From NCBI GenBank assembly GCA_938031175.1, contig CALHGZ010000009.1, positions 62,001 through 126,000 of the forward strand: a stretch of DNA of 64,000 nucleotides, read 5' to 3'. Below, piece by piece: positions 25,176 through 46,858 of this stretch. The stretch's first letter is position 1, and the number at the start of each line of letters is the position of its first letter. The stretch is from Candidatus Kapaibacterium sp. (lineage in GTDB: Bacteria > Bacteroidota > Ignavibacteria > Kapaibacteriales > UBA2268). The notes under the pieces were generated by a model. That model searched no databases, was not told the origin of the DNA, and saw only the letters and a list, made by a program, of their open reading frames with translations. Made by a program: the position numbers and the translations under genes.

Positions 25176-28100
25176 TTACTTGATGATAGTCATTGGCTGT
25201 GTTAGTATTGTTGAGCCGGTATTCAAGGAGTAGTAGTAAATACCTGAACTTAGGTTTAGCTGCATAGCATTAACAATAATGGAGCTTTCCCCAGCTTGAG
25301 CAAAACCTTCGTAGAGAATGATTTCTTTGCCATATAAATCATGCAAGCTGAGTTTAATGAATGTTGCTTCTTTGAGTGCGTAACGGATAATTGTCTGTTC
25401 GCTGAATGGGTTGGGCTGATTATTGTATAGTGCAAATTTGCCATCAGCACTTGTTATAACTGATGTGCCACCTGTGCCCGTTACTGTTACAACGCATTCA
25501 GAGGAGAAGATTTCACCGCATTCATTCCAAACTTTGCACTTATATATACCTTCGTCTGTCTGAGTTACTGCAGGTATATCAAAGGTGTTTTGTGTTTCTC
25601 CGGGGATTTCTTCATCGTTTTTAAACCATTGGTAGTAAATTGGTTCTTCGCCTATTGCTGAAACTGAGATAGATAACGAGCGTCCGCTTTGTACTTCGAT
25701 TGAAGATTCAGGTTGTAGTGTAATTATCGGAAGCATTTTTACGTCAATTCCTGCCTGTGCTGAATTTACTGTTTTACCGCCGGGTTGTACAGTTATCTTA
25801 ACATAGTAGTCATTAGCTTCATCAACCATAGTCAAATTATTGATTTGAAGAGTGTTAGTTGTTGTACCGGTAATTCTTCCATCGTCCATTAACTTAGTAG
25901 TTCCACGGTACCATTGATATTCAAGGAAGATACCGCCAACAGGAACTGCACTGACATTTAGTGCTACGTTTCTTCCCTCGCATTCGATTACATTCTGTGG
26001 TTGGGAGGTAATATTTATATCAGGTATCAATATTGATATATTTCTAAGCTCATCAACACCACAGATACCTTCTATTCTGCACCAGTAATCATTGCCAATG
26101 TCTTGCGTTTGTACATTTCGTATTGTTAATATTGTTGATTGGGAACCGGCTATGTTTGAGCCCCAAGGTAACTGACCGTCAACTAATTGCTGAGTACCTC
26201 TGTACCACTGTACTTTTATGGTTTTCAGATGCTCTCCGTCAACGTGTGCACGTACTCTGAATGATACGGTTTGTCCAACGTTTGTTATGGCAATCGGTGG
26301 GTCAATTAAAAATTCTGTCTCTGTGTGTATGTAAACTAATGCCTCTTTAGTGAATACATCGCGTATGCCACGGCAGTCTTGGATATGTAATCGGCAACGG
26401 TAGACACCAGAATGTTCAAAATCTGCATTGTTTAGCTGGAATACTGGTTCTTTAGCAGATGGGTTTGTCGCTGGATCAATGTCAACTCCATCTTTTTGCC
26501 AGTTAAAGGAATAAACTGTGCCTTCAGCATCAGCTTCAAGGGTTACAGAACCGCCTCTGCAAATATTGTAATGTTCTGGGTGTTTGGTGATTTCAATTTC
26601 GGGCCAGACGATCATTTCTAAAATTTCGGTCGGAACTTCGGCTGTGTTACATTTTGGACTTCCAAATACAAGGCATCGATACAAGCCAGTGTGTTCAATT
26701 TTTGTTTGTGGTATGATTAATCTGTTAGTTTGAGCTGTTGGGAACTCATCAATGTCAAGATTTTTGAATGTACCACTGGTGAATTTTTGCCATTGAAATC
26801 CTTTGATTGTACCTTCTGCTGATACGGAAATTTCAATTGGATCACCAACGCAAATACTACTAATATCAGCACTTGTTTGCGTTTGGATATTTTCCAGTGG
26901 GAAATTAACTGTAACATTAACTGTGGGTGTAAAAATTGTTGCTGGACCACAATTGCCTGGACCACTAATTCTCAAGCGATAGTTTCCGGCTGCTTCTTCA
27001 GGATTATCAGGATATAATTCGATTGTACTTCTTGTTTGACCAGGGATGTTTACCCAGTTGTTGGGGGATATTTCTTTTTGCCATTGATATCCTTTTATTG
27101 TGCCGATTGCAATAACATCGAATACAATTGATGCGTCGCCTTCGCAAACATCTTGTGATTCAGGAATTGAAATAACTTCAATTGGAGCCTCAACCCTAAT
27201 CGTGCTGATAGAGGTTGAAGGACCTGAACCAAAAATAAGAGCATCGGCCTGGTAGTCAGCACTATCGGAAACTTTAAGATTTGTAAATGTCAGGCGGTTA
27301 GTTTTTGCACCGGGGATTAGTTGATTATTCTTATACCAACGATAATCAAAATTGAATGTTGAATTTCTGGAAATTTGATCCTGGTAACCAATGACCGAAG
27401 CAGTGAATTCAAGTGTTGCTGATTCGTTTTCACAGAAAATTTTATTGTATTTTGTGATATCTGGATCAATTTTGATGATAGGTACAACTTCATCGGCTCC
27501 CATATTATTATTTCTTGTTCGACGGGGTTCTTTGTCAATGTCATCGTAAATATCTAAATTTGGACAAGTCAGAGTTGTATCTGAAGCTGAAGCACCATCC
27601 AGATGTAAATCAGTTGATGATTTGAATGTAACAGATTTACTGACTGAATTAGTATCTTTTCCAGTTGCAGTCTTCCAAGCTGCAATTGTTGTTCTGTCTG
27701 TGCTTAAATATCCAAGCGTACCGTAACTACCCTCAGCAGAGTAATTATTGTAGTCTATAGCTGTGAATACCCCGCTACCTGCAGACCAAACGGCATAGGA
27801 TTTACATGAATTTCGTGCATCACTATTTGGCTGCATTTTATTTATAAACAAGTTATTTCTGACATCCAGATTGGATACTGCAGTTGAACCGATACATAGA
27901 GCAGCTGATATTGCTCCATCCCTATACCAAGTACGTCCTAAAAAGTCAGTACCCATAAACACAGTATTATGGTAAACTTTGTTGTTAGAGCCACCCATAA
28001 TTCTAATCCCGAATGGGTTGTAATAAATATCATTACCCTTACCAGCTCCATTAGCACCATAGCTTGAAATGTCCCAGATCATATTGTTGATTATACTGAT

Positions 28101-31100
28101 ATTTGATACGCCAGAACCGCTTTCAACATTAATACCAACAGCACCAGAAGCTTCTTCATACTGCTGTGTTCTGTCGTAATAATAGTCATCCCAATAGTAG
28201 TAAGTATTATAAATGCCAGAAATTTTATTTCTTGCAATTAATGCATTATTTACATTAGCCTGAACTTCGATTCCAACGTTTCTGACATAATAGTAAGCTC
28301 CTTGGACGTTGAAAATTGTGTTATCTGTTATTTCAGGATATGAACAGCCTCCTATTTCAATACCTTTCATCTGTATATATTCGGCTGCGGTATTGGAACC
28401 GATTGTATTATTTGTAATTTTAAGGTTATCGTTCAAAGCGCCAGATATTCCGCGAATGTAGATGCCATACATACAGCGTCTAATTATGTTGTTGCCTATA
28501 GTCAAATTATCATTGTCGCCTCCAGAGCCAGCTGAGCTAATTGTAGTGCCAGCAGCGTAAATTGCAAAGTTAAATGTGTAAGTACTCGAGGTACCTGCCT
28601 CAATTATGCAATTTTTAATAGTTATGTTTCTTGAGCCATTTCCAGTTCCTATAAGGTGAATTGTTGCAGTGTTGGAACTCGTGCTGGTATTTCTGATAAA
28701 GAAATATCTTCCGCTATTATTGAAGCTACCGTCAATGATAACATTATCAGCACCGTTGAATCTAATAAGGCTTGTTGTAGAGCTGCCGGTAATATTTCTT
28801 GTTGAAGCGGCACTTGGTCTAATAGTAATAGTAAATCCTGAACCTCCTTCTTCGGGTAGTTGGTTTAATGCTATTGCACCGGCTTCTGTAAGGTCACTTG
28901 TAACATTTATAATAACATTTCCGGTAAGCACACCTTCATTTAGAGCTTCGAATATACCTCCACCGCTTGTGAGTGATGTGTAGGTTTGTCCGCTACCAAC
29001 ATTATATGTTCCAGCATAGCCACGTCCGATTCGGAATGAATTGATTTCACCTTCAATTGGGAATGCCGAAGAAGTTAAATTAACACTTGAAGGTTGTTGA
29101 TTAAATTCTCCTTTATTGATCGAGACGTAAACGGCAGAAGATAAATCCTGTGCAACGACAAAATATTCAATAATGTCACCAACTTGCGGATAACCACCGT
29201 ATAATTTTGAGTAATCAATTACAAATGAGAATGGAGAACCACCGGTTCCGGTAGCTTCAACCCATTTCCATCCATCAGTTGCATTTGTATTGCCGTTGTA
29301 TGCGTTAACATTTGTTGATTTTTTGTAATATAATCTTGGTCTTGTACCTGAGCTTGTATTAACACCAGAATAGTCAGTTATATAAGCCCAGCCAGTTATT
29401 GTTCTTGAAATGGTATAAGTTGATGTACCAAGAGGTTCGTAAGTAATTGTTGGTCCTGTGAAATCTCCACCTTGTTCATAAGCACCAATTGTTGGAGCTG
29501 TTGAGGAGCGGGTTGTGCCAAGTATATCGGTAGTTAGACCTGCTATTGGAGTACCTGCTTGAAGTAGTGCTGAATTAGGTAAGGGCCTTAGTACAGTGTT
29601 GGTATTGAATCCGGGATCAGTAGAAATTGAATTACTCTCTCTTGATGTAACGTTTTGCCAATCGCTCAAACCAGCTCTATCAGTTGATAAAAATCCGAGT
29701 ACTCCGTAATCACCGGATGGATAATAGCAGTTATAATCCATTGTGCTACCGGTTAGTGTGGCTGTTCCGGGTAGATAGATGCAATATGACTTTGTACCGG
29801 TTAAGCCTGTCATACTATTGGCAAAAACGTTATTTCTCAGGTCAATTGAATTAACTGCTGTTGATGTAATTAATAGACATGCAGTTAAAGATGGACCTGT
29901 TCCGACTTCTATTTGTGGACCATACAGATTGACGGTATTGTAATATATCTGATAACCAGTACCACCTAAAATTCTTATACCATAAGGATTGTAAGTAGTA
30001 CCGGTTGTATATTGAATTGTCTTTAGATCGTAGATTACATTATTGGCTATTCTTATGCTTGTATTGCCAGTAGCGCTCGAAATATTTATACCATAGGCAC
30101 CCCAGCCACCTGTATTGCCTTGCCAGATACCATAAATTTTGTTACTACTAATATTGGCGCTAGCGCAATATTGACCTATTTCAATGCCAGATATATTTGT
30201 GCCGATTGCAGTGAGTTTTAAGTTGAAAATTTCATTACCTGTTACAACCGGTGCATTGCAATTCATAATATCAATGCCACGATAGGTTACGTATTCAGAT
30301 GGAATTCTGGAGCCAATGATATTATTTGTTATAGATAGATTTTGTAAAAGATTAGCAGTTGCTAATCCACGTGCATATATGCCAAAATATGTTTTCTTGA
30401 TAATGTTTTCTGTGATAGTTATATTATTATTATCTTGGCCTGTGGCACTAATAGAAATAGTAGGGCCCCCGACATGGATACCAAATATTGAAGTAATTGT
30501 GTTAGAACCACCTATAATGTTGCAATTTCGTATAGTATTATTTGTTGCTCCTGCTCCGCTACCTAAGCTTATAATATGAATAACAGCAGTATTGGCTGAA
30601 GCAGCTCTATTTTCTAAAGTTAGAAATCTACCAGAGCCACTGACTCTACCATCTATAGTTACCCGGTCAGCACCGTTGAGACGGAAAAGTCCACCGGGCC
30701 TTGAGCCGTATAGTTTGCGTTCTGTGGCTGAGTTAGGACGAATTGTTAAAGTATATCCACTACCGCCTGTTTCAGTCCATTGATTGAGCGCTACATCACC
30801 TGTTTCTTCAATATCAGATACGATTTCGACGACTAAGTTGCCACTTAATCTACCAGTATTGATAACATCGAATAGTCCACCCAGATTGGTTAGGGACTTA
30901 TAAGTTCCAGTGGAGCCAACTGTAACGGTTCCGGATAAAGTTGCTTCTATAATGTATTGGTTTAGTTGACCACGTGCTGGGAAATGGGTAGAGGATAAAT
31001 TGACACTTGAGGGTCTTTGATTTAAAATAGCATATTCAACATTTACATTTGGAGTAGAAGCTAAATCCTGTGCGATGAAAAAGTATTGAATCGTAGTTCC

Positions 31101-33308
31101 TGGAGCAACACCATCTTTTAGTTTGCTGTAATCAATAATGAAGGAGAATGGAGATGAAGTGTTAGTAGCTTCAACCCATTTCCAGCCGTAGGTGTTGTTT
31201 GTATTATCATTGTATTCATTTGGATCCCAATTTCTCTTATAATATAATCTTGGACGTGTTCCACTTGTGGTATTAACGCCCGCAGGGTCAGTTATTCCAA
31301 TGCCACTAACATTATAGTTTGAGGTTGATGTTGTATTACTTAATGCAGTGAAAGTAATTGTCGGACCCTGAAAATCACCCCCTTGTTCATAAGCACCGAC
31401 AGTAGGTGCAGTAGAAGAACGAGTAACATCTAAAAAGTCGCGGTTATAACCAGTAATTGCAACTCCAGAACCGATTAATGGGGACGATGCTGTTGGGCGT
31501 AAATTGTTAGGTGCATTGTATAATGGATTGCTGGAGAATGAGTTAGCGTCTTGGCTAGTAGCTGTTCGCCAATCGGTAATACTTGTTCGATTAGAGCCTA
31601 AGAACCCAAGTATGCCGTAAGTACCTGATGCAAAATAGTTATTATAGTTAAATGTAGAAGAAGCTGGCATACCCGTGCAATAAATTGCATAAGATGAAGA
31701 ACCTGTTCTTCCTTCGAGACTGTTAGTAAAAGTATTATTTCGCATATCGAGGGAGGAAGCTGCTGAAGCTATATATATTGCTGCTGATAATGTTCCGCTT
31801 GTATTTGTCCCTTCTTGTGAGCCATAGAGGTTAACACTGTTATAGTAGATTCTATGGCCAGTACCGCCTGCAATATAAATACCAAATGGATTTAGTGTCG
31901 AAGTTGCACTAGCATTAGTTGAGCGCAATCTATAAATTACATTATTATATAATGTATCAGCAGTTCCACTTGCTATATAAATGCCGTAAACTCCATAAGC
32001 TGTGGTGCTGTTCCAAGAAAAGAAATTTCCTATAGTATTTTTTGCAATTAAATTATAGTTTGCGCTTGTAAAATAGATTCCATAATTGTGGTAGAAGGAC
32101 CTTATATCAGTTATGACATTGCTTTCAATTTTGTTATAATGCGAACTTGATAAGTAAATTGGGTATATTGTACCACCAACGTTTAGATCTATCATTCTAT
32201 TGTTCGTTATATTATTATAGCTTGAGCTTGTAAGAAAATATAGATAAATTGTAACAGTACCGGGAGGTTGTATGCCAGTCATAAAGTTTTCAGTTATATT
32301 GCAATAATTGGTACTTGTAAGATATACACCATAAATAGTAGAGGTTGTGATAATATTATCGTACGTGTTACCTTGAATAGTTGAATAGTGCGATATTCCT
32401 AGAAATATCCCATACCAAGCCGATGGATGATTGTGATTTTTATATGTATTGTTGATAATTTTAGTTGAATCACCATAGTAGCAATAGACACCATAGAACG
32501 TGGTTGTACCGGAAATTCTTAAAAATTGATTCTCTTCAATTATAGCGCCACGAGTGTAATATAAATACATGGACATATATGCTATGGAGCCAGAGCCATC
32601 GGTTGAGCCAAAGAGATTGTATTTAATTTCTAATCCTCTAATAAGCATATTAGATAGACCATATACATATATTCCGTAGTAAAGATGTATAAATTGGTTA
32701 TAAAGAATTTTTAGATTATGGTTACCGCCGCCGGAAGAAGTTATTGATGCGCTTGAGCCAGCGGTTATACCATAGCTGTTTGTCATAGTTCCACCCCTAA
32801 TAATACAATTTCGGATTGTATTATTTTGAGCACCACCACCAGTGCCAGTTAAAACACTATCAATCCAAATGACGGCGTGGGTAGAGGTTGTGAATGTGTT
32901 CTCCAAGGTTAATGCATTGGTGCTTCCGCTTTGATTTACTCGACCATCAATGGTAACATTATCAGCACCATTTAGTTGTATTAAAGCTGGAGAAACGCTA
33001 CCTGAAATTTTATAGGTCCCTGTTGGATATATTGTTACGCTAGTGTAATTTGCATTACCTGAGCCAGAGGCGTTTAAAATTGCTGTGGATGTTTCGTTTG
33101 TATTGCCTGTAATTTGAATTGTAATATTACCAGTATGTGTACCTGCGTTTATTGCGTCGAATGCAGCTTTGAGTGTTGTGTAGTTTGTCGTTCCAATTCT
33201 TACTTGTGAGTAGGAATTAACTGAATTTAAGAAAATTAATCCGAAAATTAGTGCGAGAATGAAATGAATTTTGAAAGAGGGTTGTGGAAATGAGTTGTTG
33301 AGATTCAT
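25176..33308 (-). CDS. Giant T9SS surface protein: three beta-helix modules, seven Ig-like domains
   Basis: The 2,710-residue protein opens with a signal peptide (about 1-35). Three homologous right-handed beta-helix modules start near residues 36, 790 and 1433. Each begins with a line like TYKSLTNLGGLFDVINTG, continues with RLNGADRVTIDGR and then rungs such as NNTIRNCIIRGG. Modules 1 and 2 each end in a shared beta-sandwich linker (GTRPRLYYKR/KK ... GWKWVEAT). From about residue 1946 seven Ig-like domains follow, several with the Cys and WxK/YQW core (ICVGDPIEISVSAEGTIKG). The C-terminus (about 2624-2710, YNNQPNPFSEQTIIRY) is a T9SS type A sorting domain. It is expected on the cell surface, perhaps binding or processing glycans or mediating adhesion. 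No catalytic residues can be assigned. Confidence 0.88.
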   Translation of the reverse strand: MNLNNSFPQPSFKIHFILALIFGLIFLNSVNSYSQVRIGTTNYTTLKAAFDAINAGTHTGNITIQITGNTNETSTAILNASGSGNANYTSVTIYPTGTYKISGSVSPALIQLNGADNVTIDGRVNQSGSTNALTLENTFTTSTHAVIWIDSVLTGTGGGAQNNTIRNCIIRGGTMTNSYGITAGSSASITSSGGGNHNLKILYNQFIHLYYGIYVYGLSNMLIRGLEIKYNLFGSTDGSGSIAYMSMYLYYTRGAIIEENQFLRISGTTTFYGVYCYYGDSTKIINNTYKNHNHPSAWYGIFLGISHYSTIQGNTYDNIITTSTIYGVYLTSTNYCNITENFMTGIQPPGTVTIYLYFLTSSSYNNITNNRMIDLNVGGTIYPIYLSSSHYNKIESNVITDIRSFYHNYGIYFTSANYNLIAKNTIGNFFSWNSTTAYGVYGIYIASGTADTLYNNVIYRLRSTNASATSTLNPFGIYIAGGTGHRIYYNSVNLYGSQEGTNTSGTLSAAIYIASAASSLDMRNNTFTNSLEGRTGSSSYAIYCTGMPASSTFNYNNYFASGTYGILGFLGSNRTSITDWRTATSQDANSFSSNPLYNAPNNLRPTASSPLIGSGVAITGYNRDFLDVTRSSTAPTVGAYEQGGDFQGPTITFTALSNTTSTSNYNVSGIGITDPAGVNTTSGTRPRLYYKRNWDPNEYNDNTNNTYGWKWVEATNTSSPFSFIIDYSKLKDGVAPGTTIQYFFIAQDLASTPNVNVEYAILNQRPSSVNLSSTHFPARGQLNQYIIEATLSGTVTVGSTGTYKSLTNLGGLFDVINTGRLSGNLVVEIVSDIEETGDVALNQWTETGGSGYTLTIRPNSATERKLYGSRPGGLFRLNGADRVTIDGRVSGSGRFLTLENRAASANTAVIHIISLGSGAGATNNTIRNCNIIGGSNTITSIFGIHVGGPTISISATGQDNNNITITENIIKKTYFGIYARGLATANLLQNLSITNNIIGSRIPSEYVTYRGIDIMNCNAPVVTGNEIFNLKLTAIGTNISGIEIGQYCASANISSNKIYGIWQGNTGGWGAYGINISSATGNTSIRIANNVIYDLKTIQYTTGTTYNPYGIRILGGTGYQIYYNTVNLYGPQIEVGTGPSLTACLLITSTAVNSIDLRNNVFANSMTGLTGTKSYCIYLPGTATLTGSTMDYNCYYPSGDYGVLGFLSTDRAGLSDWQNVTSRESNSISTDPGFNTNTVLRPLPNSALLQAGTPIAGLTTDILGTTRSSTAPTIGAYEQGGDFTGPTITYEPLGTSTYTISRTITGWAYITDYSGVNTSSGTRPRLYYKKSTNVNAYNGNTNATDGWKWVEATGTGGSPFSFVIDYSKLYGGYPQVGDIIEYFVVAQDLSSAVYVSINKGEFNQQPSSVNLTSSAFPIEGEINSFRIGRGYAGTYNVGSGQTYTSLTSGGGIFEALNEGVLTGNVIINVTSDLTEAGAIALNQLPEEGGSGFTITIRPSAASTRNITGSSTTSLIRFNGADNVIIDGSFNNSGRYFFIRNTSTSSNTATIHLIGTGNGSRNITIKNCIIEAGTSSTYTFNFAIYAAGTTISSAGSGGDNDNLTIGNNIIRRCMYGIYIRGISGALNDNLKITNNTIGSNTAAEYIQMKGIEIGGCSYPEITDNTIFNVQGAYYYVRNVGIEVQANVNNALIARNKISGIYNTYYYWDDYYYDRTQQYEEASGAVGINVESGSGVSNISIINNMIWDISSYGANGAGKGNDIYYNPFGIRIMGGSNNKVYHNTVFMGTDFLGRTWYRDGAISAALCIGSTAVSNLDVRNNLFINKMQPNSDARNSCKSYAVWSAGSGVFTAIDYNNYSAEGSYGTLGYLSTDRTTIAAWKTATGKDTNSVSKSVTFKSSTDLHLDGASASDTTLTCPNLDIYDDIDKEPRRTRNNNMGADEVVPIIKIDPDITKYNKIFCENESATLEFTASVIGYQDQISRNSTFNFDYRWYKNNQLIPGAKTNRLTFTNLKVSDSADYQADALIFGSGPSTSISTIRVEAPIEVISIPESQDVCEGDASIVFDVIAIGTIKGYQWQKEISPNNWVNIPGQTRSTIELYPDNPEEAAGNYRLRISGPGNCGPATIFTPTVNVTVNFPLENIQTQTSADISSICVGDPIEISVSAEGTIKGFQWQKFTSGTFKNLDIDEFPTAQTNRLIIPQTKIEHTGLYRCLVFGSPKCNTAEVPTEILEMIVWPEIEITKHPEHYNICRGGSVTLEADAEGTVYSFNWQKDGVDIDPATNPSAKEPVFQLNNADFEHSGVYRCRLHIQDCRGIRDVFTKEALVYIHTETEFLIDPPIAITNVGQTVSFRVRAHVDGEHLKTIKVQWYRGTQQLVDGQLPWGSNIAGSQSTILTIRNVQTQDIGNDYWCRIEGICGVDELRNISILIPDINITSQPQNVIECEGRNVALNVSAVPVGGIFLEYQWYRGTTKLMDDGRITGTTTNTLQINNLTMVDEANDYYVKITVQPGGKTVNSAQAGIDVKMLPIITLQPESSIEVQSGRSLSISVSAIGEEPIYYQWFKNDEEIPGETQNTFDIPAVTQTDEGIYKCKVWNECGEIFSSECVVTVTGTGGTSVITSADGKFALYNNQPNPFSEQTIIRYALKEATFIKLSLHDLYGKEIILYEGFAQAGESSIIVNAMQLNLSSGIYYYSLNTGSTILTQPMTIIK
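27500..33200 (-). repeat. Three tandem beta-helix modules inside the giant gene
   Basis: Three long coding repeats start near 33200, 30940 and 29010 on the minus strand. The joins after modules 1 and 2 share closely similar DNA, for example CCTTGTTCATAAGCACC near 29480 and again near 31385. Boundaries are approximate and read from protein alignment by eye. They suggest internal duplication of a roughly 2-kb unit. Confidence 0.75.
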
Positions 33309-38144: not shown

Positions 38145-38534
38145 TTATCGCTTAGAGAATTGAAATCTCTTGCGTGCTTTTTTCTGTCCATATTTTTTTC
38201 GTTCAACCATTCTTGGATCGCGGGTTAATAAACCAGCCGCTCTTAATTGCGAACGCATGCTTTCGTCTAATTGTATTAATGCGCGGGATATTCCTAATTG
38301 AAGTGCGCCAAATTGTCCGCTTTTACCACCGCCGTGGACGTTGGCCGAGATGTCAACTTTACCAGAAAATTTGGTTAGTTCAAGTGGTTTAAGTGTTTCG
38401 ATCCTTTGAAATTCGATGGGGAAGTATTGTTCGAAAGCTTGTTTGTTTATTGTTATTTTTCCAGTACCGGGAGAAATTAATTGCACTTGTGCAACTGATG
38501 TTTTTCTTCTTCCTGTGGCTGTAAAGACTTTCAT
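38145..38534 (-). CDS. rpsI: 30S ribosomal protein S9
   Basis: The 129-residue protein starts [15 protein letters not shown] and ends in the typical basic tail [28 protein letters not shown], whose terminal Lys-Arg reaches the P-site tRNA. Motifs [21 protein letters not shown] are present. It follows rplM by 28 bases, the usual L13-S9 pair. Confidence 0.98.
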
Positions 38535-38562: not shown

Positions 38563-39012
38563 TCAATACTTAAGTTCGTAAATTTCGGGTTTTTGGGCTA
38601 TATGGCTATGCTCTGAGCCTGAATATACTTTGAGTTTTTTTATAATTTGCCGACCTAAACGGTTTTTAGGTAACATTCCCCAAACAGCATGTTCTATGAC
38701 TTTAGTTGGGTTAGTTTTCATTAATTCCTTAAAAGTTCTGTATTTAGCTCCACCAGGATAGCCAGTATAATGAAAGTATACTTTCTTATCGGTTCTTTTA
38801 CCCGTCAAGAGAACTTTTCCAGCATTAATAACAATCACAAAATCTCCACAATCAACATGAGGTGTGAATTCAGGTTTATGTTTACCTCTTAGTAGTGTAG
38901 CTATTTGTGAACAAAGACGTCCGAGGTGCTTACCTTCAGCATCAATTAGCCACCATTTTCTTTGTACATCCTCTTTGCGTAGCGATTTTGTTATCTTGGC
39001 TGTTAATTCCAC
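38563..39012 (-). CDS. rplM: 50S ribosomal protein L13
   Basis: The 149-residue protein starts at GTG with GGAGTG upstream. It contains the family signatures [32 protein letters not shown] (quoted in part: [12 protein letters not shown]), [17 protein letters not shown] and [22 protein letters not shown]. First gene of the ribosomal operon, so its promoter should lie in the AT-rich gap 39013-39115. Confidence 0.97.
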
Positions 39013-39115: not shown

Positions 39116-40972
39116 TTAAGCGAAGTAGTTGTCTATATCAGAATTTTTCAGGATTTTAATTATAGTTTTTTTTGATGGGCTAAAAAAAGGGTTTGTTGTA
39201 GTAAAGAGTTTGTTAACGAATTCTTCCATTTCTTCTTTGGTTTGCAAGGGACCTTTGCGTAAGGCTAATGATTTTGCCAATTTTAGTGAAATTTTATCGT
39301 AAATAAATTCTGTGATTTCTTGATTTTCAAGTTCTTCGATGATTTCCTTTAAAATGTTAATTTCGTCTCCACTTTTAATTTCGGAGGGGATAGCTATTAA
39401 ATTTATGGTGCTATTGGATTCTATAACAATTTCAAAACCTAATCTTTCCAGTTCATTGTTTATCATCCTGAGTGTTGCAATTTGATCCTGGGGCAAATTT
39501 AGTTTAATTGGGAAAAGCATATTTTGTCTTAAGCGTTCAGTATTTTCTGTATTCCTGAATGTTTCATATAAAATTCTTTCTGTTGCAGCAAATGTATTGA
39601 TAATTAGCAAATCATCTTGACTTAATGCAAATAAGTATTTTGGGGCTAAATAGCCGAGTATTTTGATTTGTGGTTCGATATTAATGAGTTCTTCAGGTTT
39701 GATATTTTCTCGTTTTTCGATAATATTTGGTTTACCGAATAATATATCATAGGCTGAAAAATTTCTGGTGTATGATGTTTTTGGATTTTCTTTAAATCGT
39801 TGTCCTTGTATGAAATTTCCTTGGGGTTGAATAAAATTTTGTTTGGATACCTGATTATCAATGATTTCACCAGTAATTTTGTTGACCAATATTTGCTGTT
39901 TGTTAGGAAATTGATGGGTTGAGAGTTCTTTTTGTAAAGGGAATTGTGAAAGTTTCTCAAAATAATCTATATCGGGTATTTGGTGAAATGTTTTCAGGGA
40001 TTTTATAATTGATTCGAAAACGCTATTGAAAATAATTTTATCGTCGTCGAATTTGACTTCATTTTTTTGTGGATGGATATTTACATCTACTTTTTTGGGG
40101 TCAATTTCGAGCATGAGAATATAGAATGGATGCTTATTTTTATCAAGAATAGCTTCGTAGCAGGAATAAATTGCGAAGTTTATTGAACGATTAACTATAC
40201 TTCTTCCATTTAAGAAAAGGTATTGATTAGATTTTGTTTTACGAGCAATTTCTTTGGTACCAATGAAACCGGAAATTTTTAAGTAATTATTTGAATAATT
40301 TACGGGTATAAGATGATCAATAAGTTCTTTTCCAAGTGTTTTGATTATTCTATTTTCAAATGTATCAGGGATTAAGTCGAATATCAGTTGGTCATAATCA
40401 TAGAATGTGAATCTTTTGTTGTAGTTACTGATAGCAAATTTAATAACAGTATCAGCGATGTATCTGAATTCTGTTAAATTCGTGCGCAGGAATTTACGTC
40501 GGGCTGGAACATTATAGAATAGATTTTTAACGAAAATTTGAGTACCTTTATCGCAAATAACAGGTTCGATAACTGCATCTTTCAAAGGTTCAGATATCAG
40601 TTTCCAACCGATTTTATCCTCTTCTTGCCTGGTACGAATTTCGACCTGAGCTACAGAACATATAGAAGCTAAAGCCTCACCACGAAAGCCGTATGTTTTT
40701 ATTTCTTCAAGATCTTCAAGAGTATAGATTTTACTTGTTGAGTGACGCTTTATAGAAAGTTCTAAGTCTTCACGCGACATTCCTGTGCCGTTATCAATGA
40801 TATGTATTAATTGCTTACCAGCATCTTTTATAATTATAGCGATTTCAGTAGCATTTGCATCGAGTGAATTTTCAACTAATTCTTTGACAACTGATTCGGG
40901 GCGTTGAACGACCTCGCCTGCAGCTATTTGATTTGCAATGAATTCGGGCAATATGTTGATTTTGTTTGACAA
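39116..40972 (-). CDS. mutL: DNA mismatch repair protein MutL, endonuclease motifs lost
   Basis: The start is TTG; family alignment (MSNKINILPEFIANQIAAGEVVQRP) supports it. The GHKL ATPase domain (1-330) is intact: ELVENSLDANAT, IIDNGTGMS, TYGFRGEALASI. A variable linker (about 340-425) leads to the C-terminal dimerisation domain. There the metal-binding motif usually read DQHAAHERI is NTFAATERI. The usual ACKAAI region reads SLALRK and CPHGRP reads FSPSKKT. The beta-clamp binding motif QNMLFP is kept. The protein should couple MutS to repair but probably cannot nick DNA itself. It is divergent from the dsr operon. Confidence 0.95.
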   Translation of the reverse strand: MSNKINILPEFIANQIAAGEVVQRPESVVKELVENSLDANATEIAIIIKDAGKQLIHIIDNGTGMSREDLELSIKRHSTSKIYTLEDLEEIKTYGFRGEALASICSVAQVEIRTRQEEDKIGWKLISEPLKDAVIEPVICDKGTQIFVKNLFYNVPARRKFLRTNLTEFRYIADTVIKFAISNYNKRFTFYDYDQLIFDLIPDTFENRIIKTLGKELIDHLIPVNYSNNYLKISGFIGTKEIARKTKSNQYLFLNGRSIVNRSINFAIYSCYEAILDKNKHPFYILMLEIDPKKVDVNIHPQKNEVKFDDDKIIFNSVFESIIKSLKTFHQIPDIDYFEKLSQFPLQKELSTHQFPNKQQILVNKITGEIIDNQVSKQNFIQPQGNFIQGQRFKENPKTSYTRNFSAYDILFGKPNIIEKRENIKPEELINIEPQIKILGYLAPKYLFALSQDDLLIINTFAATERILYETFRNTENTERLRQNMLFPIKLNLPQDQIATLRMINNELERLGFEIVIESNSTINLIAIPSEIKSGDEINILKEIIEELENQEITEFIYDKISLKLAKSLALRKGPLQTKEEMEEFVNKLFTTTNPFFSPSKKTIIKILKNSDIDNYFA

Positions 40973-41288
40973 ATGTATGTAATATATTTCACGTGCTTTA
41001 AATCACAATATAAACATTTTGTTGTATTACCAAAGTTTAAACTTACAAAATTATGCCTTGATTGATTAATCGTTTTAATAAGGTTTAAATTATAATTGCC
41101 AAAATTTATTCTTCCACATAAATTTTACAAAAAGTTAATATTAATGATTGAAATATTGATAATGTTATATTCCTGAATTAAATTTACAATAATTGTATTA
41201 TAATAATCTGATCATTGTAAGCATTTATAAATTATAAGGTTAGACAATAATAATGTTTAGTATAGACTAATAGTTAAACAGATTGCTT
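40973..41288. other. Divergent intergenic region between mutL and the dsr operon
   Basis: About 315 AT-rich bases hold the promoters of mutL (minus) and of the RsbRD_N-dsrMKJOP operon (plus). I see a small perfect inverted repeat at 41185-41197 and a partial dyad GATTGATTAATC near 41059. No reading frame or RNA gene is evident. Confidence 0.6.
41185..41197. promoter_or_regulatory. Inverted repeat upstream of the dsr operon, possible operator
   Basis: TACAATAATTGTA is a perfect 6-base dyad with one central base, about 90 bases ahead of the first start codon of the operon. Short AT-rich dyads also occur by chance in this composition. It has no recognised regulator. Confidence 0.22.
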
Positions 41289-41822
41289 ATGTTAAATATT
41301 AATATAGATATCGAGCAGAAAAGTAAAATATTTGAGAAATGGTATCAGGATATAGTTCGAACTTATCCGCAAGATTCAAAATTTTTACTCTATGATACAA
41401 CAAAACAATTTACTAATCCACTTGCTTATAATCTACATTCTGAATCGAAAGCTATATTCGAAGCAATTTTTGAAGATAGATATCTGGAATTAATAGAGAA
41501 ACCTCTCATCAACATTATTAAGATTAGGGCAGTTCAGGATTTTTCGTCATCCGAAGCAGTTGGTTTCATAATTGGTTTGAAAAAAGCCTTTAGATATGTA
41601 TTGAATTCTGGTGATTTAAATTACACAAGTTTTTTATCCGATATTGATGAGCGGGTTGATGCTATAATGCTCAAAGCATTCGATATTTTTATGCAGATGC
41701 GTGAACGAATATATGAAATTAAAGCCAATGAAATCAGAAATCGTACATTTCGCATAATCGAACGATTGAATGAAAAATATAGATTTCAAGACAATGATAT
41801 AATTGATAGTAATGACAAATAA
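41289..41822 (+). CDS. RsbRD N-terminal-domain protein, first gene of the dsr operon
   Basis: The start is moved from the track's TTG to the ATG two codons on (MLNINIDIEQ). The 177-residue all-helical protein matches the RsbRD_N domain: IFEKWYQDIVRTYPQDSKFLLYDTTKQFTNPLAYNL and FSSSEAVGFIIGLKKAFRYVL. It lacks the STAS domain of stressosome RsbRD proteins. Genes of this type occur just ahead of dsrM in several sulfate-reducing bacteria. It ends 17 bases before dsrM and is surely co-transcribed. A cytoplasmic regulatory or assembly role for the Dsr membrane complex is plausible but unproven. Confidence 0.8.
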   Translation: MLNINIDIEQKSKIFEKWYQDIVRTYPQDSKFLLYDTTKQFTNPLAYNLHSESKAIFEAIFEDRYLELIEKPLINIIKIRAVQDFSSSEAVGFIIGLKKAFRYVLNSGDLNYTSFLSDIDERVDAIMLKAFDIFMQMRERIYEIKANEIRNRTFRIIERLNEKYRFQDNDIIDSNDK

Positions 41823-41839: not shown

Positions 41840-42850
41840 ATGGGATTATTATTTTCAATATTTACATTTATAATTCTTTTGGCAATAGCCTTCATCGGAG
41901 CATATGTTGAGGGCTTGCATTACCTTTTTGGTATAGTATTGCCATATATAGCATTTGCTGTGTTTATAATAGGCATAGTAGTTCGTATAATTAAATGGGC
42001 TCAATCGCCCGTTCCCTTCAGAATAACAACTACATGTGGACAGCAGAGATCACTTGATTTTATCAAGCAAAACAAGATTGATAATCCTTTTACAGGATTG
42101 CAAACATTTATTAGGATGTTTTTTGAAATTATTCTATTCAGGTCACTTTTTAGAAATACCAAAGCAGGTATAAAGGAGAACAAGTTGACCTATGGTGCTA
42201 ATAAATGGCTTTGGTTATTTAGTATAGTATTTCATTATTCATTTTTAATCATTGTACTCAGGCATTTTCGTTTTTTCACAGAGCCAGTTCCATCGTTTGT
42301 GCCATTTATCCAGGAAATAGACGGCTTTTTTCAAATTGGTCTGCCTATTATTTATCTAACGACAATTGGAATAACAGTTGGGCTGTTGTATTTGCTTGCA
42401 AGGCGCATTTTTGATAATCAAGTAAGATATATATCCTTAGCGTCGGATTATCTGCCTTTGTTTCTAATATTATCGATTGCTATAACAGGAATATTGATGC
42501 GGCATTTTTTCAAAGTTGATTTGACACCCGTTAAACAATTGACCCTAAGCATATTGAGCTTTCAACCAATATTACCAGCCGATGTCAATCCTATATTTTA
42601 CATTCATTTATTTTTTGTTTGCACTTTGCTTATATATTTCCCGATGAGCAAATTGGTGCATATGCCGGGTATATTTCTTAGTCCAACCCGTAATCTTGCA
42701 AACAATAATAGGGCAAAAAGGCATATAAATCCTTGGAATAGTGATTTTAAGATGCATTACCATACTTACGAAGAATATGAAGATGAATTTCGTGAAGTGA
42801 TGAGGGATGTTGGATTGCCATTAGAAAAGGAGGAGAAAAATGTCGATTAA
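41840..42850 (+). CDS. dsrM: DsrM, membrane cytochrome b subunit of the DsrMKJOP complex
   Basis: The 336-residue protein has about five to six membrane segments and resembles the NarI-type cytochrome b. Histidines in helices are candidate haem b ligands (FHYSFLIIVLRHFRFFTEP and MRHFFKVD). It starts with a hydrophobic helix and ends in a hydrophilic cytoplasmic tail. It would exchange electrons with menaquinone and pass them to DsrK. It overlaps dsrK by 11 bases. HmcE- or NarI-type paralogues are alternatives, but the full MKJOP order makes DsrM the best call. Confidence 0.93.
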   Translation: MGLLFSIFTFIILLAIAFIGAYVEGLHYLFGIVLPYIAFAVFIIGIVVRIIKWAQSPVPFRITTTCGQQRSLDFIKQNKIDNPFTGLQTFIRMFFEIILFRSLFRNTKAGIKENKLTYGANKWLWLFSIVFHYSFLIIVLRHFRFFTEPVPSFVPFIQEIDGFFQIGLPIIYLTTIGITVGLLYLLARRIFDNQVRYISLASDYLPLFLILSIAITGILMRHFFKVDLTPVKQLTLSILSFQPILPADVNPIFYIHLFFVCTLLIYFPMSKLVHMPGIFLSPTRNLANNNRAKRHINPWNSDFKMHYHTYEEYEDEFREVMRDVGLPLEKEEKNVD

Positions 42851-44462
42851 AATGACTCGAGAAGAATTAGCAGCATCCATAAATTATAAATTTCCAAAGA
42901 CAAATTGGATGGATACACCTGTTGTATTTAAAAAAGGGACTTACAATAATGCAGCTGTTCCAGATAGTATCACCTATGTTAATCAGCCAAATCCACGTAA
43001 ATGGCAACCTTATGAGGATGACTGGAAGCTTCCAGAAAATTGGCAAACAATTATACTCGAAGGTTTGAGAGAACGTTTGCATAAGTTCCGTTCATTAAAA
43101 TTGTTTATGGATATTTGCGTGCGATGCGGTGCATGTGCTGATAAATGTCATTTTTATCTCGGTTCGGGTGACCCTAAGAACATGCCAGTCTTAAGAGCTG
43201 AGCTATTGCGTGCAGTCTATCGCAAAGATTTTACTACTGCTGGCAAGTTAATGGGCAAAATTGCTGGTGCAAGAGAATTGACTTTTGATGTATTAAAAGA
43301 ATGGTTCTATTATTTTTATCAATGCACCCAATGTAGGCGTTGTTCAGTATTTTGTCCTTATGGTATAGATACAGCTGAAATAACATTTATTGCACGAGAA
43401 TTGATGAATTTAATCGGTGTGAATATTGATTGGGTAATGACACCTGTAGCGAACAGTCATCGCACAGGTAATCACCTTGGTATTCAACCGCACGGATTTG
43501 TTGATAGTATTGAATTTGCAGTCGATGACCTTGAGGAAATTACGGGCATTCGTGTCCAAGCCCCTATAAACAAAAAAGGAGCAGAGGTTTTATTTGTAAC
43601 CCCTTCGGCTGATTATTTTGGAGAACCGCATTACTATACTTTGCTTGGTTATTTAGCTTTATTTCATGAAGTAGGATTGGATTACACTTGGAGTACTTAT
43701 GCTTCCGAAGGTGGTAATTTCGGTTCATTTGTTTCTCATGAGTTAATGAAAGTGCTGAATGCTAAAATATATGCTGAGGCTAAAAGGTTAAAGGTGAAAT
43801 GGATAATTGGAGGAGAATGCGGACATATGTGGAGAGTATTACATCAATATATGGATACATTGAATGGTCCAGCTGATTTTTTAGAAACCCCAGTTTCTCC
43901 AATTACAGGTACAAAATTCGAGCATGCACGCTCAACTAAGATGATACACATAACAGAATTTACAGCAGATTTAATACGCCATAATAAAATAAAACTCGAC
44001 CCTTCACGCAACGATCATTGGCACGCTACCTTCCACGATTCGTGTAATCCGGCAAGAGCAATAGGATTATTTGAAGAACCGAGGTATATTCTTAAGCATG
44101 TCTTGAATAAATTTACGGAGATGCCTGATAATACAATACGTGAACAAACATTTTGCTGCGGAAGTGGTGCTGGATTGGGTACTGAAGAAAATTTCGAAAT
44201 GAGAATGCGTGGTGGCTTCCCGAGGGCTAATGCAGCTAAATATGTTAATGAAAAGTACGGAGTTAATGTGGTAGCTTGTATCTGTGCCATTGACAAAGCT
44301 ACTTTGGTACCTTTATTTAATTACTGGGTTCCAGGACTTGAAGTGGCTGGTGTACACGAATTTGTTGGTAATGCATTGGTGATGAAAGGTGAAAAACCTC
44401 GCGAGTTAGATATGCGACAACAACCATTACATGGAAAGGAGGAGGAAAGTAAAAATGTATGA
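42840..44462 (+). CDS. dsrK: DsrK, HdrD-like iron-sulfur subunit
   Basis: The 540-residue cytoplasmic protein has two ferredoxin-type cluster motifs, CVRCGACADKCHFYLGSGDP (about residue 97) and CTQCRRCSVFCPYG (about 162). It then has CCG-domain cysteines, including FHDSCNPAR and FCCGSGAGLG (about 440), that hold the noncubane cluster typical of heterodisulfide reductase HdrD. It is thought to reduce the DsrC trisulfide or disulfide using electrons from DsrM. A strong AAGGAGGAG precedes the ATG. It overlaps both dsrM and dsrJ, showing tight translational coupling. Confidence 0.95.
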   Translation: MSIKMTREELAASINYKFPKTNWMDTPVVFKKGTYNNAAVPDSITYVNQPNPRKWQPYEDDWKLPENWQTIILEGLRERLHKFRSLKLFMDICVRCGACADKCHFYLGSGDPKNMPVLRAELLRAVYRKDFTTAGKLMGKIAGARELTFDVLKEWFYYFYQCTQCRRCSVFCPYGIDTAEITFIARELMNLIGVNIDWVMTPVANSHRTGNHLGIQPHGFVDSIEFAVDDLEEITGIRVQAPINKKGAEVLFVTPSADYFGEPHYYTLLGYLALFHEVGLDYTWSTYASEGGNFGSFVSHELMKVLNAKIYAEAKRLKVKWIIGGECGHMWRVLHQYMDTLNGPADFLETPVSPITGTKFEHARSTKMIHITEFTADLIRHNKIKLDPSRNDHWHATFHDSCNPARAIGLFEEPRYILKHVLNKFTEMPDNTIREQTFCCGSGAGLGTEENFEMRMRGGFPRANAAKYVNEKYGVNVVACICAIDKATLVPLFNYWVPGLEVAGVHEFVGNALVMKGEKPRELDMRQQPLHGKEEESKNV

Positions 44463-44907
44463 TGGATGGAAGATAATTTTAGGTATAATCATTTTCTTAG
44501 TCGTATTTACCATACCTTTATGGCTAAATATAGCAAATAAAGCCGATACGTCAATTCCTGAACTCGTGTTGCCTACTGATTACAAGGAATGCATAGCACC
44601 AAGAGATTATATGCGAGCATATCATATGGATATTTTAGATGAGTGGCGTGATAAGGTGGTGCGTCAGGATATAAGAATGTTTAAGTTTAAAGACCAAGTG
44701 GTGGAAATGAGTTTGACTAAAACCTGTATGAAGTGCCACGATTCTAAACAAAATTTTTGTGATAGATGCCATAACTATTTTGGCGTGAAACCATATTGTT
44801 GGGATTGCCACGTTGCACCTGAGGAGGTTAAGAAAAAGTTCGCAACAAGAGAAGATCTAAACCGATTGAATGAAGATACAGAAAACAATAATTCGGTGAG
44901 GAGGTGA
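44455..44907 (+). CDS. dsrJ: DsrJ, periplasmic triheme cytochrome c
   Basis: The true start is the ATG at 44455 (MYDGWKIILG), preceded by GGAGGAGG; the track's earlier start lies inside dsrK. Residues about 5-25 are an uncleaved or cleaved membrane anchor (IILGIIIFLVVFTIPLWL). Three haem-binding CXXCH sites follow: CMKCH, CDRCH and CWDCH. This is the triheme pattern of DsrJ. It carries electrons on the periplasmic face of the Dsr complex. It lies three bases ahead of dsrO. Confidence 0.94.
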   Translation: MYDGWKIILGIIIFLVVFTIPLWLNIANKADTSIPELVLPTDYKECIAPRDYMRAYHMDILDEWRDKVVRQDIRMFKFKDQVVEMSLTKTCMKCHDSKQNFCDRCHNYFGVKPYCWDCHVAPEEVKKKFATREDLNRLNEDTENNNSVRR

Positions 44908-44910
44908 AAA

Positions 44911-45696
44911 ATGGACAGACGTAAATTTATTTACTTATTGAGTGGTACTGCTTGTTTGGGAATTGCTGGTAAAGTAGGTTTCGAATTAACAGCAAAAGGT
45001 GAAATAATCAACAGCGCCGAGAAAGGTCTTGGAAATAAAAGATGGGCTATGGCAATTGATTTATTTAGACTAAAGAAGAAAAATACTTATTTTGCTTGTA
45101 TAGAAGCTTGTCATAATGCTCATAATGTTCCCGAAATTTTGAATAAAAAACACGAAATAAAATGGATTTGGAGAGAGAATTTTAAGCATGCATTTATTGA
45201 GCAAGAGCATAAAAATTTACCGCAGAAAATTACCTCTTTGCCAGTACTTCTTTTATGCAATCATTGTAACCGTCCACCTTGCGTAAATGTTTGTCCGACA
45301 AAGGCAACTTGGCGGCGCAGTGATGGAATAGTAATGATGGATTGGCACAGATGTATCGGTTGTCGTTATTGTATAGCAGCTTGCCCTTATGGTTCAAGGA
45401 GTTTTAATTTTATCGAACCCAAGCCACATATACATAATATTACTGAAGACTTTCCGGCTCGAACGAGAGGTGTTGTTGAGAAATGTACATTTTGTGCAGA
45501 ATACATAGTTAAAGGTGAGTATATAAAGCAACCGGATTGTGTTGCTGCCTCGAAAGGAGCTATAGTTTTTGGGAATTTAAATGATAAAAATTCTGAAGTA
45601 TATAAACTGTTGACAACTAAGTTTTCAATCAGAAGGAAACCCGAATTGAGTACTGAACCCGAAGTGTATTACATAATTGAAGACGAGGAGGTATGA
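44911..45696 (+). CDS. dsrO: DsrO, Tat-exported ferredoxin-like subunit
   Basis: The 261-residue protein begins MDRRKFIYLLSGTACLGIAG, a twin-arginine signal for folded export. Four cysteine groups that ligate [4Fe-4S] clusters are visible: CIEACHNAHNVPE, CNHCNRPPCVNVCP, CIGCRYCIAACPYG and CTFCAEYIVKG...DCVAA. This matches the DsrO/HybA family. It passes electrons between DsrJ and the membrane protein DsrP. A GAGGAGGTG site lies ahead of the ATG. Confidence 0.94.
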   Translation: MDRRKFIYLLSGTACLGIAGKVGFELTAKGEIINSAEKGLGNKRWAMAIDLFRLKKKNTYFACIEACHNAHNVPEILNKKHEIKWIWRENFKHAFIEQEHKNLPQKITSLPVLLLCNHCNRPPCVNVCPTKATWRRSDGIVMMDWHRCIGCRYCIAACPYGSRSFNFIEPKPHIHNITEDFPARTRGVVEKCTFCAEYIVKGEYIKQPDCVAASKGAIVFGNLNDKNSEVYKLLTTKFSIRRKPELSTEPEVYYIIEDEEV

Positions 45697-45697
45697 T

Positions 45698-46858
45698 ATG
45701 TTAGAAAAAGCATTTCAAGGAAGCAGAACATATTGGACCTGGATCATCTTTCTTCTCCTGTTGATTGTTATAGGTGTTTATTTTTATTTGAAGCAATTTT
45801 CCACTGGTTTAGGAATAACAGGATTGAGCCGAGATGTATCCTGGGGATTTTATATTGCTCAATTTACTTTCCTCGTCGGTGTGGCTGCATCCGCAGTAAT
45901 GGTTGTTTTGCCTTACTATTTACATAATTATAAAGCATTTGGCAAAATAACAATTTTGGGAGAGTTTTTAGCAATTGGTTCAGTTATAATGTGTATGCTT
46001 TTTATTTTTGTTGATATGGGACAGCCACTAAGAATAGCTAATGTATTTCTTCATCCAACGCTTAACTCACCAATGTTTTGGGATTCAGTATCTTTGCTGG
46101 GTTATTTAATTTTGAATGTAATTATAAGTATCGTAACTCTCGATGCAGAAAAGAAAGGGATTAAACCACCATCTTGGATAAAACCTATAATTGTCATCTC
46201 AATACCATGGGCTATTAGTATTCATACTGTTACAGCATTTTTATATTCTGGTCTTGCAGCGAGGCCATTCTGGATGTCAGCTATTATGGCACCACGATTT
46301 CTTGCTACTGCTTTTGCCGCTGGTCCGGCTTTGCTTATAATTTTGTGTTTATTTCTAAAGAAAATTTCCAAATTTGATGTTGGTAAAGAACCGATTCAAA
46401 ATTTAGCTATAATAGTAACCTATGCGATGTTACTGAACGTATTTTTCATTTTACTTGAATTATTTACAGCTCTTTATAGCGGAATTCATCACCATGCTGA
46501 ACATTTTCAATTTATGTATTTTGGATTAGATGGGAATTATACACTTGTACCCTGGATGTGGATTTCTACATTTCTGGCAATTTTAGCGATTATATTTCTT
46601 TTGATACCTTCATTGAGAAAATCTGATAAAACTTTACTTTGGGGCTGTATATTTGTTTTCAGTTCAATTTGGATTGATAAAGGGTTGGCTATGGTTGTTA
46701 CTGGTTTTATTCCAAATCCATTAGGATATGTTACACCTTATTGGCCTACGATGCCAGAAATTATGATTTCTATTGGTGTGTTTGCAGTGGGTATTTTAGT
46801 AATTACAGGTTTATATAAAATAGCCCTAACTGTGAGAGGGGAATTGAAATCAATGTAA
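45698..46858 (+). CDS. dsrP: DsrP, NrfD-family quinone-interacting membrane subunit
   Basis: The start is the ATG at 45698 (MLEKAFQGSRTYWTW) with GAGGAGG seven bases upstream; the track start is a TTG inside dsrO. The 386-residue protein has about ten membrane segments and the NrfD-type features GLSRDVSWGFYIAQFTFLVGVAASAVMVVLP, quoted in part, and SIPWAISIHTVTAFLYSGL. It links the quinone pool to DsrO. It is the last gene of the operon and is followed by a strong terminator. Confidence 0.94.
   Translation: MLEKAFQGSRTYWTWIIFLLLLIVIGVYFYLKQFSTGLGITGLSRDVSWGFYIAQFTFLVGVAASAVMVVLPYYLHNYKAFGKITILGEFLAIGSVIMCMLFIFVDMGQPLRIANVFLHPTLNSPMFWDSVSLLGYLILNVIISIVTLDAEKKGIKPPSWIKPIIVISIPWAISIHTVTAFLYSGLAARPFWMSAIMAPRFLATAFAAGPALLIILCLFLKKISKFDVGKEPIQNLAIIVTYAMLLNVFFILLELFTALYSGIHHHAEHFQFMYFGLDGNYTLVPWMWISTFLAILAIIFLLIPSLRKSDKTLLWGCIFVFSSIWIDKGLAMVVTGFIPNPLGYVTPYWPTMPEIMISIGVFAVGILVITGLYKIALTVRGELKSM

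Follow-up and report, generated by a model that had tools for sequence, protein, structure and literature searches.

The MutL protein encoded in the window (the whole 64,000-nucleotide stretch of DNA analysed here, from a Candidatus Kapaibacterium sp.) was found to have lost the motifs of the MutL endonuclease site while keeping its ATPase and sliding-clamp-binding motifs. An earlier, sequence-only reading of this DNA had proposed such a loss, and this was confirmed when the protein was aligned with 73 MutL proteins of its order; an alignment with 134 MutL proteins of the phylum was prepared later. The short motifs on which the proposal was based (NTFAATE, SLALRK, FSPSKKT, ELVENSLDA, GFRGEA, and QNMLFP) were all present, and the alignment placed them on the expected motifs, including motifs II, III, IV, and V. 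The gene boundaries given in that reading were also right, the gene lying on the minus strand. The relevant features are listed below.

39116–40972, minus strand: mutL, 618 amino acids with a TTG start (open reading frame and translation)
40856–40882, minus strand: ATPase motif ELVENSLDA, with E31, N35, and D38 (conservation in the phylum alignment)
40673–40690, minus strand: ATPase motif GFRGEA (conservation in the phylum alignment)
39119–39685, minus strand: C-terminal domain, BsuL/NgoL-type fold (AlphaFold2 and Foldseek; composition)
39563–39598, minus strand: motif II remnant NTFAATERILYE, ancestral DQHAAHERxLYE (alignment)
39509–39526, minus strand: motif III, sliding-clamp binding, QNMLFP, kept (alignment)
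39251–39274, minus strand: motif IV remnant KSLALRKG, ancestral CKAAIKTG, C573 replaced by K (alignment)
39164–39181, minus strand: motif V remnant SPSKKT, ancestral CPHGRP, C604 and H606 both replaced by S (alignment)
38563–39012, minus strand: rplM, directly downstream of mutL (synteny scan)
38145–38534: rpsI, following rplM

The window protein is assigned to the MutL family of GHKL mismatch-repair ATPases, with a TIGR00585 score of 471 bits (cut-off 180) and with both the PF01119 (DNA_mis_repair) and PF08676 (MutL_C) domains above their cut-offs. Annotation as 'mismatch repair endonuclease MutL', the name given by TIGR00585, and similar database names are misleading for this protein. In a scan of the collection, the nearest relative to carry a name was L040, labelled Ignavibacteria, at 37% identity. 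In what follows, families are coded f and genera g, and the window belongs to f1. A second MutL, which would have refuted the sequence-only reading, was sought in the window's own genome (97% complete) and only the one MutL match was found.

The zinc ligands of the endonuclease site, in Bacillus subtilis MutL numbering, are H464, E468, C573, C604, and H606 (PMC2965676). Alignment with the MutL proteins of the order and of the phylum revealed that D462, H464, C573, C604, and H606 are N, F, K, S, and S in the window protein, such that five of the six metal-holding or catalytic positions are replaced and E468 alone is kept. Motif II, DQHA(X)2E(X)4E, has therefore lost its Asp and His and retains both Glu residues (E468 and E473), while the motif IV Cys and the CPHGRP of motif V are gone. 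The possibility that the missing ligands are supplied from elsewhere in the C-terminal domain, which the sequence-only reading had named as a refutation, was ruled out for Cys and His, since the domain contains no residue of either kind. An AlphaFold2 model of this domain, built from two sequences, had a mean pLDDT of 81 and matched the BsuL and NgoL C-terminal domains (3kdk, 3kdg, and 3ncv) with Foldseek TM scores of about 0.7–0.8, which argues that the modelled domain is an endonuclease-type fold with an emptied site. Although the fold is shared, the protein is placed outside the functional endonuclease-type group, because the defining motifs are lacking, and its nuclease activity has almost certainly been lost. 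In Caulobacter the D472N substitution, the same Asp to Asn change as seen here, gave a mutation rate equal to that of a mutL deletion (PMC8034640), and in Aquifex MutL a His to Ala change in motif V abolished nicking (PMC2744016). A chance event or a sequencing slip would not account for this, because a like loss was found in ten other f1 species and sister genera show purifying selection.

In contrast to the nuclease site, the ATPase was found to be strongly conserved. E31, N35, and D38 were identical in 54/54 dead MutL proteins (two or fewer zinc ligands) and in 79/79 live ones (all five ligands), GFRGEA was invariant (54/54 dead and 80/80 live proteins), and the HP-x-K lysine was identical in all 54 dead proteins, that of the window included. 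Across the N-terminal domain, 82 columns were conserved at the ≥ 90% level in the 54 dead proteins versus 84 in the 80 live proteins. The clamp motif, for which the consensus is QxLLxP (PMC2965676), was present in 53/54 dead and 77/80 live proteins. That these motifs are strongly conserved while the nuclease site is fully decayed argues that MutL has been kept for a job other than cutting. Selection on the C-terminal domain was gauged in g24 and g25, the dead genera with measurable synonymous divergence (for the window species the set contains no close relative), and dN/dS was 0.06–0.15 compared with about 0.03–0.07 in the live genera g20 and g21; constraint in g24 and g25 is thus weaker than in live genera and clearly still purifying. 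The reverse pattern was observed in genus g17 (L045, L052, and L054), where the five zinc ligands are kept and the clamp motif is degraded to SKLLFE or KDLLFE.

The phylum sample comprised 134 MutL proteins from 36 families and is not a census: f1 is heavily represented, most families only sparsely. Five zinc ligands were present in 80 of these proteins and two or fewer in 54, with none retaining three or four, and the decay of the nuclease site is all-or-none. Within f1, 11 of 48 MutL proteins were dead (genera g1, g18, g24, and g25). Outside f1 the figure was 43 of 86, nearly always without a MutH to explain the loss, and the premise that MutL proteins beyond the MutH-using group mostly carry the site did not hold in this phylum. 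Dead proteins occurred in 20 of the 36 families; 17 families had only dead proteins, 16 only live ones, and three were mixed. The sequence-only reading had called a lineage-wide loss notable; the loss is lineage-wide, and it recurs far beyond that lineage. Details of the decay varied: sister genera also lack E468, having Q or R in its place, and many dead proteins elsewhere keep the motif II Asp together with the Glu residues. In the same order, all sampled MutL proteins of f2 (L070, L071, L072, L064, L147, and L149) and f8 (L022, L073, and L074) were dead, and in some of these motif II is almost perfect (DQHAAHERVIYE) and the motif IV and V Cys/His ligands are gone.

The history of the loss within f1 was explored using gene order and phylogeny. 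The mutL-rplM-rpsI linkage of the window was common to nine of the ten other dead f1 species and was seen in only one live species. In a tree of the concatenated MutL N-terminal domain and MutS, g1, g18, g24, and g25 grouped together with the live genus g4 (97/95), which was placed beside the dead g24; in the MutS tree alone g4 paired with g24, and g18 with g25. Monophyly of the dead genera was not rejected with either the concatenated data (p-AU 0.067) or the N-terminal domain alone (p-AU 0.314). The C-terminal domain of g4, and its N-terminal domain when the dead genera were left out, attached to g14/g17, and g4 does not have the mutL-rplM linkage. Given this affinity and the different gene neighbourhood, g4 may have acquired a live mutL. 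The trees are consistent with either a single loss followed by that acquisition, or two or three losses. Genus g4 (L047, L049, and L051) thus combines a live MutL with a MutS that is sister to that of a dead-MutL genus.

A partner nuclease was then sought. No match to MutH (PF02976) was found in the window's own genome, the E. coli control being positive, and 52 of 54 genomes of the wider phylum set likewise gave no match. The two remaining genomes encode two-match proteins of 468–481 amino acids of the Sau3AI type, and that of G032 (L081) is probably restriction-type, since a DNA methylase-like open reading frame adjoins it. MutH was accordingly ruled out as the partner, and, with MutH absent, mismatch repair here is not of the E. 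coli type. EndoMS/NucS (PF01939) was also ruled out as a replacement, as there was no match in the own genome with positive controls and only scattered, mostly weak matches in the other genomes searched. The same was concluded for Vsr, which is missing from the own genome and is scattered elsewhere in a way that does not track loss of the nuclease site. Inspection by eye of the open reading frames beside mutS and mutL, in the own genome and in sister genomes, revealed no shared uncharacterised nuclease. The sequence-only reading had posed a choice between nicking by another nuclease and an altered form of mismatch repair, and had asked after a MutH or a MutS-linked nuclease; with no MutH, no EndoMS, and no second MutL, that choice still stands.

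Other components of mismatch repair were present. MutS of the own genome (P0002) scored 1004 bits against NF003810; its mismatch motif reads GDFFE and its tail QLAIF. MutS is near-universal and, where complete, is intact with mismatch motif and clamp tail. RNase HII is encoded in the own genome, as are UvrD-type helicases, one of which lies in the window, 13 kb from mutL, and is a candidate downstream mismatch-repair partner.

54082–56340, plus strand: UvrD-family helicase (PF00580, 311 bits, matched at G000:C9:116145-116933, which is window 54145–54933)

MutS was found with no MutL in three f1 genomes of 85–97% completeness, namely G005 (g6), G009 (g10), and G012 (g13), at loci L098, L108, and L093, respectively; mutL may have been lost altogether in these genera or may be absent from the assemblies.

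MutL homologues that lack a nuclease are known, either alongside MutH, as in E. coli, where MutL works with MutH and Dam, or alongside a live MutL partner, as in eukaryotes. The window protein shares with E. coli MutL a kept ATPase and clamp motif and nuclease motifs II, IV, and V that are absent or broken; unlike the E. coli case, its genome has no MutH and its C-terminal domain is BsuL-type and aligns end to end with that of live relatives. E. coli MutL is without the substructure that carries motif V (PMC2965676). MLH1 and human PMS1 (MutLβ) are likewise MutL homologues without the metal motif, but they pair with other MutL proteins, whereas the window protein is the sole MutL of its genome and would be expected to form a homodimer without a live half. 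With the endonuclease-type BsuL and NgoL it shares full-length homology, the C-terminal fold, the motif positions, and the clamp motif, and it differs from them in having lost the catalytic Asp and all but one of the five zinc ligands.

Bacteria without MutH are, by the accepted rule, dependent on the endonuclease of MutL itself. A structural study considered that motif V can be regarded as invariant (PMC2965676). On the present alignments the rule that MutL cuts wherever MutH is missing fails for many bacteria, because MutH and the nuclease site are both missing here and like loss recurs across the phylum. No prior report of a dead MutL in this phylum, or in bacteria without MutH, was found in a search that covered few subscription papers, which is weak evidence of novelty. 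Should repair nonetheless function, neither MutL nor MutH could be the source of strand discrimination and incision, and these natural systems would allow a direct test of the long-standing question whether nicks linked to replication are enough.

The explanation favoured here, and considered reasonably probable, is that the window protein acts as a nuclease-dead, ATP-driven, clamp-bound matchmaker in MutS-dependent repair, with the nick coming from outside MutL. MutS would find the mismatch and load MutL, which would close with ATP, hold the β clamp via QNMLFP, and recruit a UvrD-type helicase and exonucleases. MutL itself would make no cut, and the external entry point would most likely be pre-existing ends of the new strand, such as the ends of Okazaki fragments or the cuts that RNase HII makes where ribonucleotides were misincorporated; failing these, it would come from a nuclease not recognised in this work. 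Of these two sources the former is slightly favoured. That repair works, and where its nick arises, we infer. For bacteria without MutH, initiation directed by nicks, at the ends of Okazaki fragments and where RNase HII cuts, has already been proposed (PMC8744996). Several points count against this explanation. Caulobacter needs the MutL endonuclease although natural nicks should exist there too (PMC8034640), so nicks alone do not suffice in every organism; the clamp motif was tested in that same organism only in a MutL whose own nuclease is needed; and the selection seen on the ATPase could stem from a function outside mismatch repair.

The matchmaker role has to be weighed against three other explanations. 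A nonhomologous nuclease, that is, a MutH analogue recruited by MutL or the clamp, may make the cut in place of MutL. Retention of the clamp and ATPase motifs is in keeping with a matchmaker whose role is to activate a partner, E. coli MutL also retains motif III alone of the C-terminal motifs (PMC2965676), and all-or-none decay is the pattern expected when a function has been replaced. However, the searches for MutH, EndoMS, and Vsr and the inspection of mutS and mutL neighbours yielded no such enzyme, and several independent losses would each require the same kind of partner, so this explanation is rated as rather unlikely. A residual activity, in which leftover acidic residues (E468, E473, and other Asp or Glu) bind metal and cut DNA through an altered site, is far less credible still. 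Both Glu residues remain in the window protein and the motif II acidic residues survive in many dead proteins elsewhere, but E468 has gone from the sister genera, the window domain offers no Cys or His, and known MutL proteins are inactivated or badly impaired by a single change at D, E, or the motif V His (PMC2744016, PMC8034640). One caveat is that a motif V Cys mutant of Thermus MutL was still active (PMC2744016).

Alternatively, repair may be weak or lost and MutL may serve another job, for example blocking recombination between diverged DNA. This would agree with the fruitless nuclease searches, with the weaker constraint on the C-terminal domain in g24/g25, and with the three f1 genera that have MutS and no detected MutL, where mutL may be dispensable. 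Against it, the ATPase and clamp motif are equally conserved in dead and live proteins, MutS is near-universal and intact where complete, and the loss affects whole families, a poor fit to short-lived mutator lineages. Complete loss of repair is possible, then, and given the near-universal MutS and the family-wide spread it is less likely than the matchmaker role; the explanation as a whole is held to be improbable. Extended beyond the window, the matchmaker role would mean that much of the phylum carries out MutS-MutL repair without MutL- or MutH-type incision, starting from replication-linked ends or from an undescribed nuclease, a proposal given slightly better than even chances.

Other genes of the window were also noted. 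A complete dsrMKJOP set (41840–46858, plus strand) is divergent from mutL and adjoins it, and DsrM, K, J, O, and P all scored above their NCBIfam cut-offs. This electron-transfer complex belongs to dissimilatory sulfur metabolism, and its presence is notable in a relative of Ignavibacteria. Between mutL and dsrM, positions 41283–41822 (plus strand) encode a 179-amino acid protein with an RsbRD N-terminal domain of the stress-signalling type. Finally, a 2710-amino acid protein encoded at 25176–33308 (minus strand) has NosD-like repeats and C-terminal immunoglobulin-like domains; this large protein is probably displayed on the surface or secreted.
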